Assembly: GCF_014297365.1 (NCBI RefSeq)
Contig: NZ_JACOQD010000002.1
Location: forward strand, 930,001-994,000
Source: Winogradskyella echinorum
GTDB lineage: Bacteria > Bacteroidota > Bacteroidia > Flavobacteriales > Flavobacteriaceae
Direction: 5' to 3'
DNA length: 64,000 nucleotides
Shown in pieces: positions 1,284 to 6,463 of this stretch. The position numbers were made by a program, and so were the translations under genes. The notes beneath the pieces are model-generated. The model was not told where the DNA came from and searched no databases. It worked only from the letters and a program-made list of their open reading frames with translations. Every line of letters begins with the position of its first letter. The first letter of the stretch is position 1.

Positions 1284-1721
1284 ATGAAAAAAAGAAGAAT
1301 TATTTCGTCAATACTTTTAATTATTGGATTTGCTTTAAGTGTTGCATTTATAACAAAAATTGAATTTCCTCAAGGCTTCGAAGCATATTTTAAAAGAGAA
1401 TACTATAATCAATTTGGCCCCTTAGCCATAAGTGTTGAGCTTTTAATTGCAAGTTATTACCTTTTTATAGGTCATAAAAAAACAAATTTCACTTTAGCTC
1501 TTTTCGGATTCACTGCTTTACTAGATCCTTTTTTTAATGCCATAGGGCTCTTTAACAGTATAATGCCATTATACGGAACCATAGTTTTATCTATCTGTGC
1601 TCTAATATGTATAGGCTTAGCATTTGCAAACACATTTAAATTAAAAAGGTTGTCTCGCATTGCAGCAATATTAAGTGTAATCCTTGGTGTTATCATTGAA
1701 CTATTTTTCAATTACATTTAG
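1284..1721 (+). CDS. small multi-pass membrane protein, unknown function
   Basis: A 145-residue protein starting at the ATG at 1284 (MKKRRIISSILL). An in-frame ATG at 1164 is rejected because it lies inside the preceding terminator. Four hydrophobic helices are visible: near residues 5-23, 40-60, 65-85 and 90-108, with a further C-terminal hydrophobic run to the end. Short basic loops (GHKK, KLKRLSR) suggest cytoplasmic turns. I recognise no family. It stands alone between the terminator and an M23 peptidase gene 152 bp downstream, so context gives no clue. Confidence 0.55.
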   Translation: MKKRRIISSILLIIGFALSVAFITKIEFPQGFEAYFKREYYNQFGPLAISVELLIASYYLFIGHKKTNFTLALFGFTALLDPFFNAIGLFNSIMPLYGTIVLSICALICIGLAFANTFKLKRLSRIAAILSVILGVIIELFFNYI

Positions 1722-1873
1722 TAAACGTTACTCTACGCCTTATAAGATTAATTGCTAAGTCACTGCCAATATATACACACTATTTCAGAAAATTCTATCT
1801 AATATTTATTTGCTAAATTAGGTGCTAAAACACGCCAATAACAGCACACACAAATGTAGAACATTGAAATCTG

Positions 1874-2704
1874 ATGCAAAGAATTTACTTTATTTTATCA
1901 ATATTTTTTCTAAGTGCTTTGTATAGTTTTGGGCAAAAACAAAAAGACGAGCCCACAACATATTTAGACGATTTATCTATTGGATGGAGAAAAGATATGG
2001 ATACGCTTAAGTTTATAGCTAAAAGTAAATCGTTAGCTCCAATTGAAATTTACTTTACAGAAGAAAAAAATCAGATAGAATTACAATCATTTATACTTAA
2101 ACCAAAAGACAGTATACAACTCATTAATTACAGCGGAGAATTACCTGATTCTACATTCATTTCTCGTTTTAAAGATAGCATTCGTATTGGTTATTTTTTA
2201 GGGCATCAATCTCTAATAGAACCAGATTTAGATTATCTATACAGAATGCCGTTTAAAAAGAGAAAAAAATATGAGGTAAGTCAGAGCTTTAATGGCAAGT
2301 TTTCCCATAACAGCTTACAGTCTAGATATGCCATAGATTTTCAGTTAAATGTAGGCGAACCTGTTTATGCTGCACGAGAGGGTACGGTTGTAAAAGTAGT
2401 GGATTGGTTTACCAAGCAAGGAGGAAAGAATTTAATACATGCTGCTAACAAAATAGTTATTTTGCATTCTGATGGTACTTTAGCTTCATATGTTCATTTA
2501 GATTACAAAGGAAGTTTTGTTAAAGAAGGAGAAATTGTAAAAAAGGGACAAAAAATTGGAATTTCAGGAGTTACAGGATATACACGTGGTCCACATTTAC
2601 ATTTTGTTGTTAGAAAAGAAAGAGATATTGCAATTCCTATCTATTTTGAAGGATATAAAGGTAAAATACTAAAGAATGGGAAACGATATAAAGTAATTGA
2701 ATAG
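1874..2704 (+). CDS. M23 (LytM) family peptidoglycan peptidase, secreted
   Basis: A 276-residue protein with a signal peptide (residues 1-20, cleaved before QKQK), then about 110 residues of unassigned beta-rich sequence, then an M23 metallopeptidase domain at about 135-250. The zinc ligands are visible: H145 and D155 in the spaced form H-x9-D (RYAIDF), and H241/H243 in GPHLHF; the YVHL motif supplies the accessory catalytic His208. M23 enzymes cut peptide cross-links in the cell wall, here probably in the periplasm. The gene faces another M23 gene across a 43-bp gap, but the two belong to different subfamilies and are not duplicates. All catalytic residues are present. Confidence 0.85.
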   Translation: MQRIYFILSIFFLSALYSFGQKQKDEPTTYLDDLSIGWRKDMDTLKFIAKSKSLAPIEIYFTEEKNQIELQSFILKPKDSIQLINYSGELPDSTFISRFKDSIRIGYFLGHQSLIEPDLDYLYRMPFKKRKKYEVSQSFNGKFSHNSLQSRYAIDFQLNVGEPVYAAREGTVVKVVDWFTKQGGKNLIHAANKIVILHSDGTLASYVHLDYKGSFVKEGEIVKKGQKIGISGVTGYTRGPHLHFVVRKERDIAIPIYFEGYKGKILKNGKRYKVIE

Positions 2705-2747: not shown

Positions 2748-3431
2748 TTAATAAATATTCAATAACAAATTAGGATCTGGGCAATTAGCTTTGTAAAATT
2801 CTAAATCGAATTGATTGCTTACTCCTGGATAATCTCCTTCAAAATTTTGAATATCTTTTATAATTTGAAAATGCAAGTGTGGCGGATAATCTCCATTAAC
2901 CTCAGCAGTACCTAACGCAGCAATTTGTTGGCCATGCTTTACTTCTACTCCAACCTCTAAATTTTTAATTGATGTTATGCTTAAATGTCCGTAAAGCGTA
3001 AAAAACTCAAACCCTCCAATGGTATGTTTTAAAATTAATGTTGGTCCATAATCTCCATAATTGGTATTATTCTTAAAGCTATGAATGATACCATTTAAAG
3101 GTGCATAAATTGGTGTATTGGCTTCTATCCACAGATCCACTCCTAAATGAATATTACGCTCGGTTTCTGGGTTAGATTGATTAAAATAATTACTACGCTC
3201 ATAAATACCGCGTTGCTCTAAATAACCTCCAAATGCAACTTTGGCGTCGTTTTTCTTTATCTGATTATTGATAAAAGTTTCTAAATCTGTTGATGAAGAA
3301 ATATTAACACCTTTTAATTCTTTATTGTGTATTGATAAATCTAGAGGCACATAATCTAACTTAGATATTCCTTTTAATAATGCATGTGTTTGAAGAGATT
3401 GCAGAAATACTTCGAAAGCGGAAAGGGACAT
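2748..3431 (-). CDS. M23 family peptidase without signal peptide
   Basis: A 227-residue protein from the ATG at 3431. The frame extends to a TTG at 3488, but those extra 19 residues look like chance coding. The M23 domain occupies residues 90-200: HLGVD (H95, D99), LYGHL (H149) and PPHLHF (H185, H187) form the zinc site. The tail DYPGVSNQFD...CPDPNLLL is typical of a flavobacterial M23 subgroup. There is no signal peptide or membrane helix, so how it would reach the wall is unclear; a cytoplasmic role or non-classical export is possible. It is monocistronic and convergent with the secreted M23 peptidase. Confidence 0.75.
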   Translation of the reverse strand: MSLSAFEVFLQSLQTHALLKGISKLDYVPLDLSIHNKELKGVNISSSTDLETFINNQIKKNDAKVAFGGYLEQRGIYERSNYFNQSNPETERNIHLGVDLWIEANTPIYAPLNGIIHSFKNNTNYGDYGPTLILKHTIGGFEFFTLYGHLSITSIKNLEVGVEVKHGQQIAALGTAEVNGDYPPHLHFQIIKDIQNFEGDYPGVSNQFDLEFYKANCPDPNLLLNIY

Positions 3432-3544
3432 AAAACTAAAATTTCCATAAAAATACGATTCTATTTCAATGGAAAAACGTGAAGACAAAATAGTTTCTGA
3501 AATAATTTCAGAAAACCAAACTCAGTAAATAAATAGTAGTTTTT

Positions 3545-5122
3545 CTAGTTCATAATTAAATTACTAAACTTAGCATTAACAATGATATTTCTATCCGAAC
3601 TTTGTCCTTCAGGATAATTACGAATGGTCTTTTGTGTTGTTGGCTTATTATTATACTTAGAACGGTTACCTTTAAAATACATACTGTAATCTATATTTTT
3701 TGGTAAGTTAACTAAAGCATCACTATTCTCTAAAATTAGATTAAGGTTCTTAAAGGTCTCAGTAAGATTAGAAATAGTTAAATCTCCAAAACTACCATCT
3801 ATAATACCTGTATCTGTTAAACGCTCTATACTAATATTAGACGACTTAGAATTAAGCACTAAATTCTTCGCATTCTTAATTTGTGCTTTATCTACAAAAT
3901 TAAGATTAAGCGTACCTAAATCCCAATTATTAATAACCACTGGCGAATAAGATACATTGATGGAAGTGTCACTTCCATCAATGTTTTCTGCTACTAAAAA
4001 TGAGTGCGATATATCACCTTTCATATTATAAATAACTGAAGTTAACTTTAGCTCGCCATGTCTTATGTTAGTTTTTAACTTAGCCTTTTTAGGGATTTTA
4101 ATTTTAATCACCTTTTTTACTTTGCTATTGCTACCAGATTCTAATCGACCTATTAAAATAGACGCTCTTCTATTCTGCATTTCTTCTTGTCTCTCGTGCA
4201 TATGTTCAGCTCTTTTGGCTAATGCTTCAGCTCGTTTCTCCATCGCTTCACCTCGCTTTTCCATTTGTTCTCCACGTTTTTCCATTTCTGCACCAAAACG
4301 TTCTCCCCAAGCTTCCATTTTTTCTTCCCACTCCTTGCCAAACTTTTCTCCGAATTCTTCACCCCATTTCTCCATGTCTTTCCCAAACTTCTCTCCAAAT
4401 TTCTCTCCCCATTTTTCCATGTCTTTAGCCCATTTGCCTTCAAAACGTTTACCATATTCTTCTCCCCATTTCTCCATCTTTTCTTGGTAACCAGACTCTG
4501 CAAATTTTCTTGCCCAAGCCTCCATTTTTTTCTGAAACTCTTTACCCCCTTTTCGTTCATACTTTTTGCTCCATTCAGTTAAGTACTTTTCTCCATCTTC
4601 TTGATATTTATCGTAATCAAAATCTATAGTTGTAATCCCTTTTGGTAACTCAGGTAGCTTTGGCATTATCGGCATTTCTGGCATTTCTGGCATTTCTGGC
4701 ATCTCAGCCATTTGTGGTAATATTGGCATAGGTGGCATTTCAGGCATTTCTGGCATTTCTGCTAACTGAAACTCTAGATCATTTAACAATGAAGAGTAAT
4801 CATCACCTGGAAATAAACTAGAACTTCTTCCACCTGTAGATGAAATAATAACGTTATCACCAGATCCTTCCACTTTAAGATTCCAAGCTTCTAAAGCACG
4901 TTGTAGTTCTTCTTGAGATAATTTTGAACTTTCAATATAAGCTTCAACTTCTACGATATCTCTATTCCAAGTTTCTAATTCTATTTCTACATAGCTAGTT
5001 CTTAAATCTACAACGACATCCTTATTAACTTTTATAGATTGTGATACCTTACTCAACTTTTTCTGTGCATAACCAAATGTGGTTATAAGGCAAAGCATTA
5101 AAATTTTGATTGTTTTTTTCAT
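3545..5122 (-). CDS. secreted repeat protein of a sigma/anti-sigma operon (DUF4097-like flanks, Met-Pro tract, helical stalk)
   Basis: A 525-residue protein with a signal peptide (1-19, FGYA/QKK). Residues 22-95 are a beta-strand segment of the DUF4097 kind (VVVDLRTSYVEIELETW). Residues 122-160 are almost pure Met-Pro-Glu (MPEMPEMPPMPILPQM and further MPEMPEMPEMP). Residues 170-315 form a charged amphipathic stalk of repeats: about 15-residue units such as MEKWGEKFGEKFGKD, tightening into 7-residue MEKRGEQ units. Residues 330-525 return to beta-strand repeats (SSNISIE, GSFGDLTISNL). It follows the sigma factor and anti-sigma-like genes on the same strand, 53 bp after the latter. I infer an envelope protein whose expression the sigma factor controls. 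The function is unknown. Confidence 0.7.
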   Translation of the reverse strand: MKKTIKILMLCLITTFGYAQKKLSKVSQSIKVNKDVVVDLRTSYVEIELETWNRDIVEVEAYIESSKLSQEELQRALEAWNLKVEGSGDNVIISSTGGRSSSLFPGDDYSSLLNDLEFQLAEMPEMPEMPPMPILPQMAEMPEMPEMPEMPIMPKLPELPKGITTIDFDYDKYQEDGEKYLTEWSKKYERKGGKEFQKKMEAWARKFAESGYQEKMEKWGEEYGKRFEGKWAKDMEKWGEKFGEKFGKDMEKWGEEFGEKFGKEWEEKMEAWGERFGAEMEKRGEQMEKRGEAMEKRAEALAKRAEHMHERQEEMQNRRASILIGRLESGSNSKVKKVIKIKIPKKAKLKTNIRHGELKLTSVIYNMKGDISHSFLVAENIDGSDTSINVSYSPVVINNWDLGTLNLNFVDKAQIKNAKNLVLNSKSSNISIERLTDTGIIDGSFGDLTISNLTETFKNLNLILENSDALVNLPKNIDYSMYFKGNRSKYNNKPTTQKTIRNYPEGQSSDRNIIVNAKFSNLIMN

Positions 5123-5175
5123 GTTTTTTTTGATTTAACTGTTCGTTTTTTGATTTTATGATTTATTGATTGTGA

Positions 5176-5745
5176 TTATGTAATTTCTTGTGTAAATGAA
5201 TCATCATTATATTCTTGCAACTTTTCTTTAAGACGCATTACTAGGTTTAGTCTAAACTTTAAATTATCTATTAAAGCGTCTAAGGTTTCTTCATTAGGTC
5301 CATTTGCATTTAATTCTATCGTAAGCTTATCATACTCTTCATTTAATTCTTTAAGACGTTGTACATAACCGTCAAATAATTCCTTATTTTCTGGTGTTAA
5401 CTGTACTTTAGATAATTCTAAATTGATGCTTGCCAAATAATAGTCTTCTACTTTCTTTAAGTCTGGCGAAACATCACCTAAGGTTTTTATGTCAGTTTCT
5501 ACAACTTTAACTGGTACATCATCAGTTATTTGTGGGTTAGAGAAAAACTGAAACGCTCCATAACTCAAGCCTAACAATACAACAACGCTTGCCGCTATGC
5601 TAAAGAAATTAAACCTGTTAGACGGTTTTTTCTTAGGCAACGTTTCTTCTAACTTTTGAAGAAAACGTGCTTCATGACCTTCAGACATTTTTATATGCTG
5701 ATCTTTTGGTTCTTCATTAAATAAATTTCTAAGATCTTGTGCCAT
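5176..5745 (-). CDS. membrane-anchored anti-sigma-like protein
   Basis: A 189-residue protein with one transmembrane helix at about residues 47-67 (SIAASVVVLLGLSYGAFQFF). The cytoplasmic N-terminus contains the flavobacterial phrase MSEGHEARFLQKLEE, and the periplasmic part is a long acidic helix region (residues 95-185, coiled-coil-like). Its start overlaps the end of the sigma factor gene by 17 bp, the arrangement expected for an ECF sigma factor and its membrane regulator. There is no zinc-binding HxxxCxxC motif, so it is not a ZAS-type anti-sigma factor, and the assignment rests on position and topology. It probably holds the sigma factor at the membrane until an envelope signal arrives. 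Confidence 0.7.
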   Translation of the reverse strand: MAQDLRNLFNEEPKDQHIKMSEGHEARFLQKLEETLPKKKPSNRFNFFSIAASVVVLLGLSYGAFQFFSNPQITDDVPVKVVETDIKTLGDVSPDLKKVEDYYLASINLELSKVQLTPENKELFDGYVQRLKELNEEYDKLTIELNANGPNEETLDALIDNLKFRLNLVMRLKEKLQEYNDDSFTQEIT

Positions 5746-6226
5746 TTTTCTCTGTGTTTAATGCTAATTGTAACTTTTGCTTTCCTCTAGATAATTGGGT
5801 TCTTGATGCGACTTCAGAAATATTCAGAATTTCAGATATTTCTTGGTGATCGTAACCTTCAATTAAATAGAGCATCACTACATATTTATACTTTTCTGGT
5901 AATTGCTCAATTGCTGCTTTTACCTCTTCAATTGTTATATCATCCTCTACTAACCATTCATTTTCGTAATCTGCATCTACGACGTTTAAATGATTCTCTT
6001 CGAGTTCTAAAAAACGTTGACGCTTAGATTTTAAAACATCAATACATTTATTAATAACTATGCGCTTTAACCAAGCTCCAAAACTTACCTCAGCTTTATA
6101 TTGTTCTAACTTTAAAAACGCTTTTATAAACGCTTCTTGTACAATATCTTCTGCCTCCATTGTATCCTTTACAAATCGAAGCGCTACTATTAACATGCCA
6201 TTGCAATATTGATTGTACAATTGCAT
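5729..6226 (-). CDS. ECF-type RNA polymerase sigma factor
   Basis: From the first canonical start (ATG at 6226) the product has 165 residues. Sigma region 2 is seen in ALRFVKDTMEAEDIVQEAFIK and FGAWLKRIVINKCID; region 4 in EQLPEKYKYVVMLYLIEGY followed by the helix-turn-helix DHQEISEILNISEVASRTQLSRGK. The N-terminus is short: the expected region 2.1 residues (IVEKCKQNDRQAQ) are encoded in frame just upstream, between a TAA at 6293-6295 and the ATG, with no ATG, GTG or TTG. Translation therefore probably begins at a rare codon (ATT at 6271 or 6265, or ATC at 6286), giving up to 22 more residues. It heads the operon with the anti-sigma-like and repeat-protein genes. Confidence 0.9.
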   Translation of the reverse strand: MQLYNQYCNGMLIVALRFVKDTMEAEDIVQEAFIKAFLKLEQYKAEVSFGAWLKRIVINKCIDVLKSKRQRFLELEENHLNVVDADYENEWLVEDDITIEEVKAAIEQLPEKYKYVVMLYLIEGYDHQEISEILNISEVASRTQLSRGKQKLQLALNTEKNGTRS

Positions 6227-6463
6227 TTGCGCTTGCCTATCGTTCTGCTTGCATTTTTCAACAATATGAATTTGAAAGGTGCTGATTTTGGTTTAGTTTT
6301 TTGATTGGTTACACATTAAAGACGTCGCTAATTTTTAAGTGTGACAAAAAATCTAAAAAAATATTCATTTTATAAGATTTACTTAAAATTCAACGTTAGT
6401 ATTCTATAAATTTAGGGATTTGAATTATCTTTAAATTTTAAATTCAATTTAAGATTAATAACT

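Follow-up and report, generated by a model that had tools for sequence, protein, structure and literature searches.

The window analysed here is a stretch of 64,000 nucleotides from Winogradskyella echinorum. It carries a three-gene unit in which an ECF sigma factor gene and an anti-sigma factor gene are followed by the gene of a 525-residue beta-helix protein that is presumably exported (Table 1). In a structural model the two halves of this protein (residues 21-96 and 336-525) are one Toastrack-type beta-helix domain. The arm of about 230 residues between them is, judged by comparison of homologues, an insertion, an elaboration encountered in Flavobacteriaceae only. Our proposal, which is tentative and falls a little short of an even chance, is that the products of the three genes make up an autoregulated envelope-stress unit to which the arm is a binding addition. 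Many of the sampled Flavobacteriaceae carry the unit, which extends to other families of the phylum, and it would offer a way into the study of how flavobacteria sense envelope stress.

Table 1. Coordinates of the three-gene unit in the window and of the parts of the beta-helix protein
Feature	Position	Strand	Basis
ECF-type promoter, TTGTCACA-N14-ACGTCTTTA	6317..6347	-	motif conserved among relatives
ECF sigma factor, regions 2 and 4	5729..6226	-	PF04542 and PF08281 above cut-off
Anti-sigma factor, 189 aa	5176..5745	-	one predicted membrane helix (46-69), predicted periplasmic helices (94-182)
Gene of the arm-bearing beta-helix protein, signal peptide included	3545..5122	-	525 aa; open reading frame and homologues
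Signal peptide, residues 1-20	5063..5122	-	ends ...GYAQ; cleavage inferred
Beta-helix, N-terminal half, residues 21-96	4835..5062	-	model strands; fold match from 19-21; profile match 18-95
Hydrophobic-Pro-Glu tract, period 3, residues 122-161	4640..4759	-	sequence; composition across homologues
Conserved segment after the tract, residues 162-185, FDYDKYQEDGEKYLTEWSKKYE	4568..4639	-	invariant residues, motif
Amphipathic helical stalk, residues about 170-325	4148..4615	-	model helices 170-325; periodicity
Beta-helix, C-terminal half, residues 336-525	3548..4117	-	model strands, block pLDDT mostly 80-96; fold match to 525

A beta-helix protein in two halves

The open reading frame starts with ATG and its N-terminus, MKKTIKILMLCLITTFGYAQ, resembles a signal peptide. 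Around the presumed cleavage site A19 is nearly invariant and Q20 invariant among 16 homologues. The AlphaFold2 model, built from 16 sequences (mean pLDDT 75, pTM 0.52), forms strands over residues 21-96 and 336-525 and helices over 170-325, and leaves the tract as coil. Its confidence is moderate to low in the arm, with pLDDT below 50 at 294-332. In a Foldseek search of the PDB the top match was 4QRK at E 8.6e-3, and none reached 0.001. With a second aligner, and for a predicted model of mean pLDDT 75, the matches were 3LYC (Z 17.8, 219 of 239 residues, rmsd 3.5, model residues 20 to 525), 3PET (Z 15.6) and 4QRK (Z 12.4, 157 of 212 residues, rmsd 2.7). PMC11237479 uses the last of these to exemplify the Toastrack fold. 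The best fold matches, 3LYC from Parabacteroides distasonis and 3PET from Bacteroides fragilis (BF0245), cover parts of both halves, but their chains of 239 and 218 residues are too short to hold an arm and their identity to the protein is 5 and 11%. Since the fold matches span both halves, these can be read as one domain and the tract and stalk as a loop insertion.

An earlier note on this DNA had described a beta fold split by a tract and a stalk, with DUF4097-like strands on both sides. The split holds good, in that the halves fold together in the model. The strands do belong to one Toastrack-type fold, but the DUF4097 label has no counterpart in Pfam, where the 525-residue protein has no match above the cut-off to PF13349; in the host genome this profile matches a different gene only. 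Kinship to DUF4097 rests on the fold and on insert-free relatives. The Pfam scan of the protein gave only a sub-threshold match in the helical part, to DUF2884 (YggN), with 25.0 bits against a cut-off of 30.6 and with 7 of 16 homologues at E <=0.01. PMC2731931 and PMC4577112 list yggN in the Escherichia coli sigma-E regulon and among Salmonella sigma-E binding sites. E. coli YggN itself gives no significant alignment with the stalk, and the match was taken as an effect of composition, as were weak matches to apolipoproteins.

The operon and its promoter

The sigma gene overlaps the anti-sigma gene by 17 bases. Among the best 80 of 430 relatives, which were confirmed in named genomes and used as the locus set, the sigma, anti-sigma and beta-helix genes follow each other on one strand in 77 loci; of the remaining three, two reach the contig edge at the anti-sigma gene and the third lacks DNA upstream. 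In a larger, redundant set of 174 loci, 173 have the anti-sigma gene immediately before the beta-helix gene. The note's placing of the protein in a sigma/anti-sigma operon is thus correct, with an ECF sigma gene and an anti-sigma gene upstream. A peptidase M23 gene is found downstream in many loci, but it was left out of the unit since it lies about 1.5 kb further away in several Psychroserpens-like loci. In the window there are two such genes downstream of the operon, at 1874-2704 (+) and 2748-3488 (-), arranged tail to tail.

The 189-residue anti-sigma protein matched no anti-sigma family in profile scans. It carries a conserved GHEARF segment, and its periplasmic part is predicted to have three long helices within 94-182. 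For the anti-sigma protein a sequence search of the PDB gave no match, and for its periplasmic part a structural search gave no clear relative; the fold search returned many tied helical bundles, among them 2Y39 (Z 7.3), which stands for the CnrX-type periplasmic metal sensors.

ECF promoters as a rule have AAC in the -35 element and CGTC in the -10 element. Relatives of the window share the consensus TTGCAACA-N14-TCGTCTTTA upstream of the sigma gene, from which the copy in the window differs at three bases. The general form TG..AC-N13to19-CGTC occurs in 77 of 77 upstream regions (the window and those 76 of the best 80 of 430 loci that have enough DNA) and in 0 of 77 in a reversed control. The strict form, TTGNNACA-N14-NCGTCTTTA, occurs in 66 of the 77, including 41 of 41 in the closest set. 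The exact consensus was counted in four genomes (G005, G028, G034 and G011, with G026 left aside): the first three have one copy each, before the beta-helix operon, and in G011 it is absent and the best site has one mismatch. With up to three mismatches there are 31 matches in the host genome and 30 in the reversed control, and three of the 31 precede the sigma genes of the three paralogous operons in that genome. A wide regulon was rejected because the motif counts equal the control; a regulon with looser sites is possible.

A promoter-like site of this type with one mismatch, identical in two genomes, was seen elsewhere (L203 and L211, motif at 1501 (-)). It precedes a different ECF sigma-like gene, which is followed by the gene of a small membrane protein.

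Distribution and co-inheritance

In a protein search, 32 of 60 sampled genomes had a match, with 28 of 36 for the others of the host genus. With the full-length protein 203 of 299 family genomes matched; the match was strong in 192, and the other 11 were weak (E 6.1e-6 to 7.8e-4) and had no close anti-sigma gene. A profile of the C-terminal half alone matched 187 of 299 family genomes, 9 of 148 from the order and 13 of 296 from the phylum, and many Flavobacteriaceae genomes in the order and phylum samples were without a match to it. The anti-sigma profile matched 243 of 299 family genomes, 51 of them more weakly than 1e-40 and taken as paralogues. All 192 genomes with an anti-sigma match at E <1e-40 encode the beta-helix protein, 186 of them by the C-terminal profile and six (G084, G205, G282, G311, G350, G351) by the full-length search; G147 has a weak match to the C-terminal half (E 2.8e-4) and no strong anti-sigma match. 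Within the genus, eight of eight genomes that lack the beta-helix protein also lack a close anti-sigma gene, two of these genomes being less than 90% complete. It should be kept in mind that co-inheritance of neighbouring genes can arise from joint loss alone.

The arm as an insertion

The gap between the two halves is 159-270 residues long (median 230.5) in the 174 loci of the redundant set. In six outgroup proteins it is 11, 15, 20, 19, 36 and 20 residues (L144 and L145, from other families of the order, and L149-L152, from other families of the class). The outgroup values are raw and the family values corrected to the profile ends; the raw range in seven family rows is 160-265. All six outgroup genes lie behind a sigma gene and an anti-sigma gene in identical order. 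The anti-sigma profile includes some of the outgroup sequences that it scores, and a search with a single sequence recovered the anti-sigma protein at E <=1e-5 for five of the six outgroups and missed that of L150. When a profile of six insert-free proteins, with the L198 paralogue itself among them, is laid on the 525-residue protein, it places 14 model positions on residues 96-329.

The L198 paralogue comes from the host genome, which holds two further, paralogous operons, L197 and L198, each with its own sigma and anti-sigma gene. The L198 protein has 362 residues and no long insert. The L197 protein has 397, and a weak profile match puts 78 residues between its halves. A genome that encodes both arm-bearing and arm-free versions lends itself to comparing the roles of core and arm. 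One of the two paralogous operons, without a long insert, is followed by the gene of a small repetitive lipoprotein-like protein that may be akin to DUF2807.

Two unusual copies were seen among the relatives. In L146 (G402, 1507-2547 (-)) the frame stops early in the C-terminal half, with a TAA inside the match, and the tract is rich in proline and poor in methionine. In L165 (G350, 3158-5266) the N-terminal half and the tract are fused in frame to a protein that, by eye, is beta-lactamase-like. This is either a rearrangement or an assembly error in a genome that is 84% complete, and L165 is absent from the counts of the C-terminal half.

How the unit may work

The sequences show a conserved gene order, a conserved ECF-type promoter in front of the operon, strict co-inheritance and a signal-peptide-like N-terminus on the beta-helix protein, and the proposed mechanism builds on these. 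In the proposed autoregulated unit, the anti-sigma factor would hold the sigma factor at the inner membrane, and a stress signal at its periplasmic helices would free the sigma factor, which would then transcribe chiefly its own operon. The exported beta-helix protein would consequently be the main output. In the periplasm its core would serve as a scaffold and a partner surface. The arm would be an amphipathic extended strand, polyproline-II-like, and then amphipathic helices along which a hydrophobic stripe runs unbroken. Its amphipathicity suggests that it may give a longer reach in binding a membrane face, itself or a partner. It is an add-on; the sigma/anti-sigma arrangement also exists with arm-free versions.

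The beta-helix protein could also act upstream of the sigma factor, as a periplasmic co-sensor that locks the helical part of the anti-sigma factor until stress titrates the protein away, in a negative feedback. The strict pairing of the two genes is consistent with this. So is the conservation of the anti-sigma protein, where the periplasmic helices hold five of seven invariant columns in 29 sequences (some alignment rows lack the N-terminus through the start that was chosen, which favours periplasmic columns), and where these helices are retained in the insert-free systems. Docking would have to use the core and not the arm, because the arm-free systems have homologous anti-sigma factors. 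We regard the co-sensor as unlikely.

The tract, the stalk and what they might bind

The preferred reading, in which the arm binds, draws on its two regular parts. Residues 120-161 contain 13 Pro, 10 Met and 8 Glu among 42, so that the Met-Pro-Glu tract reported at 122-160 in the earlier note is real, and it is better described as hydrophobic-Pro-Glu with a period of three. Among the 107 homologues whose tract has four or more period-3 proline steps, Met (44%) and Leu (38%) predominate at its first position, ahead of Ile (9%), Phe (6%) and Val (2%), and its third position is mostly Glu (67%). With a period of three, each face of a polyproline II helix carries a single type of residue. After the tract comes a conserved segment in which G162, F168, D169, Y173, G177 and Y180 are invariant among 16 homologues. 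The strict pattern FDY..Y...G..Y...W occurs in 107 of 134 homologues and in 0 of 134 in a shuffled control, and many of the 27 that miss it do so through one visible substitution.

The charged helical repeats of the stalk shorten, as had been described, from units of 15 residues (MEKWGEKFGEKFGKD) to units of seven (MEKRGEQ). Between residues 198 and 289 hydrophobic residues recur at lags of 15 and 19 (14 times each, where 4.7 and 4.4 are expected with an sd of 1.7) and at lags of 4 and 11 (15 and 12, against 5.3 and 5.0 expected). The helical moment of the stalk peaks at 95 degrees per residue, that is 3.79 residues per turn, a value that would favour right-handed supercoiling, and helix moments are 0.3-0.65 across much of the arm. 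These repeats are weak in the DNA itself (period 9 with 11.2 copies and 74% matches; period 45 with 2.0 copies and 86%), so they look old and not like fresh slippage. A recent repeat expansion in this strain only, which the earlier note had named as evidence that would count against its reading, was rejected because homologues occur across the family.

Lengths and elements were compared in 134 distinct sequences from 167 loci, loci being dropped when the C-terminal half scored below 60 or its start was unrecognisable; the 55-row alignment omits L028 and L029, both truncated by contig ends. The stalk is variable in length, as had been supposed, and the variation is modest: 118-215 residues, with 5-44 for the tract, by a simple rule (the longest loose proline chain) that misses the tract in some rows. 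In an alpha/polyproline-II stalk such as that of streptococcal AgI/II an extended tract pairs along a helix, in which case the two lengths should co-vary. Here a raw Spearman correlation of 0.44 vanishes in independent contrasts (r 0.08, p 0.34, 133 contrasts, with the same tract rule), and with the proline count used in place of tract length the contrasts give r -0.08 and p 0.39. These contrasts lend no support to a hairpin of matched lengths.

The earlier note had read the arm as a methionine-rich, metal- or oxidant-sensitive stalk of variable length that is read out by the anti-sigma protein. Methionine is indeed strongly preferred in the tract: it makes up 45% (461/1025) of Met, Leu, Ile, Val and Phe at the hydrophobic position, compared with 5% (292/6215) in the C-terminal half. 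From the composition of the homologues, it is nonetheless exchangeable with Leu, Ile, Phe and Val, which replace it in relatives with an identical operon. The insert has no Met-Pro at all in 10 of 134 homologues, no more than one in 24 and no more than two in 38; nine of the 24 retain a period-3 run of at least five prolines. The sole Cys of the protein sits in the signal peptide. The note had also pointed to homologues that lack both tracts in the same role as a possible objection. Such proteins exist as remote relatives only and not within the family. Scored by exact period-3 proline runs and by [WF]G[EDK], a run beyond two prolines is missing in 15 of 134 and the repeat motif in 7, and both are missing in 0 of 134, where less than one would be expected by chance. 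This persistence counts in favour of the earlier reading. Readout by the anti-sigma protein fares worse: since the operon also occurs with no long insert, both in outgroups from other families and in a paralogous copy of the host genome, the arm does not look like an ancestral readout device. Taken together, sensing through methionine is weakened, and the reading as a whole is improbable.

A surface adhesin carried on a stalk is just as improbable. The PDB titles of 3PET and 4QRK (putative adhesin or cell adhesion protein) would suit it, but these are database names. The tract also resembles the proline-rich region of the beta protein of group B streptococci (NF038253, E 2.7e-4, with a score of 18.9 bits where the cut-off is 1700). 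This XPZ region, which according to Areschoug 2002 reportedly adopts a polyproline II structure, is periodic and proline-rich like the tract, but the match is weak and the beta protein is a surface protein of a Gram-positive. With no Cys after the signal peptide the beta-helix protein has no lipoprotein anchor, no secretion-signal family is among its reported family matches, and a sigma factor of its own fits stress better.

Relation to known systems

Toastrack proteins (DUF4097/DUF2154/DUF2807, with 4QRK, Bacillus subtilis YvlB/LiaG and Listeria Lmo2486/2487 as members) share the beta-helix fold and the link to envelope stress; in other phyla such domains are connected with membrane-stress systems. 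The 525-residue protein differs from them in its signal peptide, its inserted arm, its own sigma/anti-sigma pair and the missing Pfam match. In PMC11237479 Toastrack domains are argued to be intracellular, and an operonically linked sigma factor is named for a different, DUF2089-type Toastrack context. An intracellular location would count against the proposed export, but the signal-peptide-like start of the protein, with A19-Q20 kept in 16 homologues, speaks against such a location here. The same paper describes PSP and Lia systems, in which Toastrack is likewise coupled to a membrane-stress regulator, whereas a Pfam scan of the five neighbouring proteins here found no PspA, PspC, LiaI/LiaF or two-component protein. 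According to PMC12791056 the yvl operon, which encodes Toastrack in B. subtilis, is tied to the ECF factor sigma-W, so an ECF link as such has precedent, and what is new here is the signal peptide, the dedicated anti-sigma gene and the inserted arm. No description of this three-gene unit or of the arm architecture was found among the papers listed for DUF4097, DUF2807, Toastrack and Winogradskyella sigma factors, in a search that covered few subscription journals. With more reserve than for the single unit, it may be suggested that Bacteroidota have an undescribed class of three-gene stress units, with three paralogous copies here that each follow a similar ECF promoter, in which a sigma factor would mainly serve to make its own exported scaffold protein and the arm of one copy would be a long-reach binder.

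The start of the sigma factor gene

Coding conservation of the sigma gene extends 5' of the annotated ATG, over 6226-6280 (-), and likewise upstream in L058-L096. In 38 rows the changes upstream of this ATG number 43, 12 and 129 at codon positions 1, 2 and 3. One codon in this region, frequently ATG in other genera, is ACC in the window and ACG in 31 of the 38 nearest relatives (31 of 39 with L072, which has ATG and was omitted from the count). By this comparison the ATG of the sigma gene seems to have been lost in most of the nearest relatives, and a non-standard start is likely.
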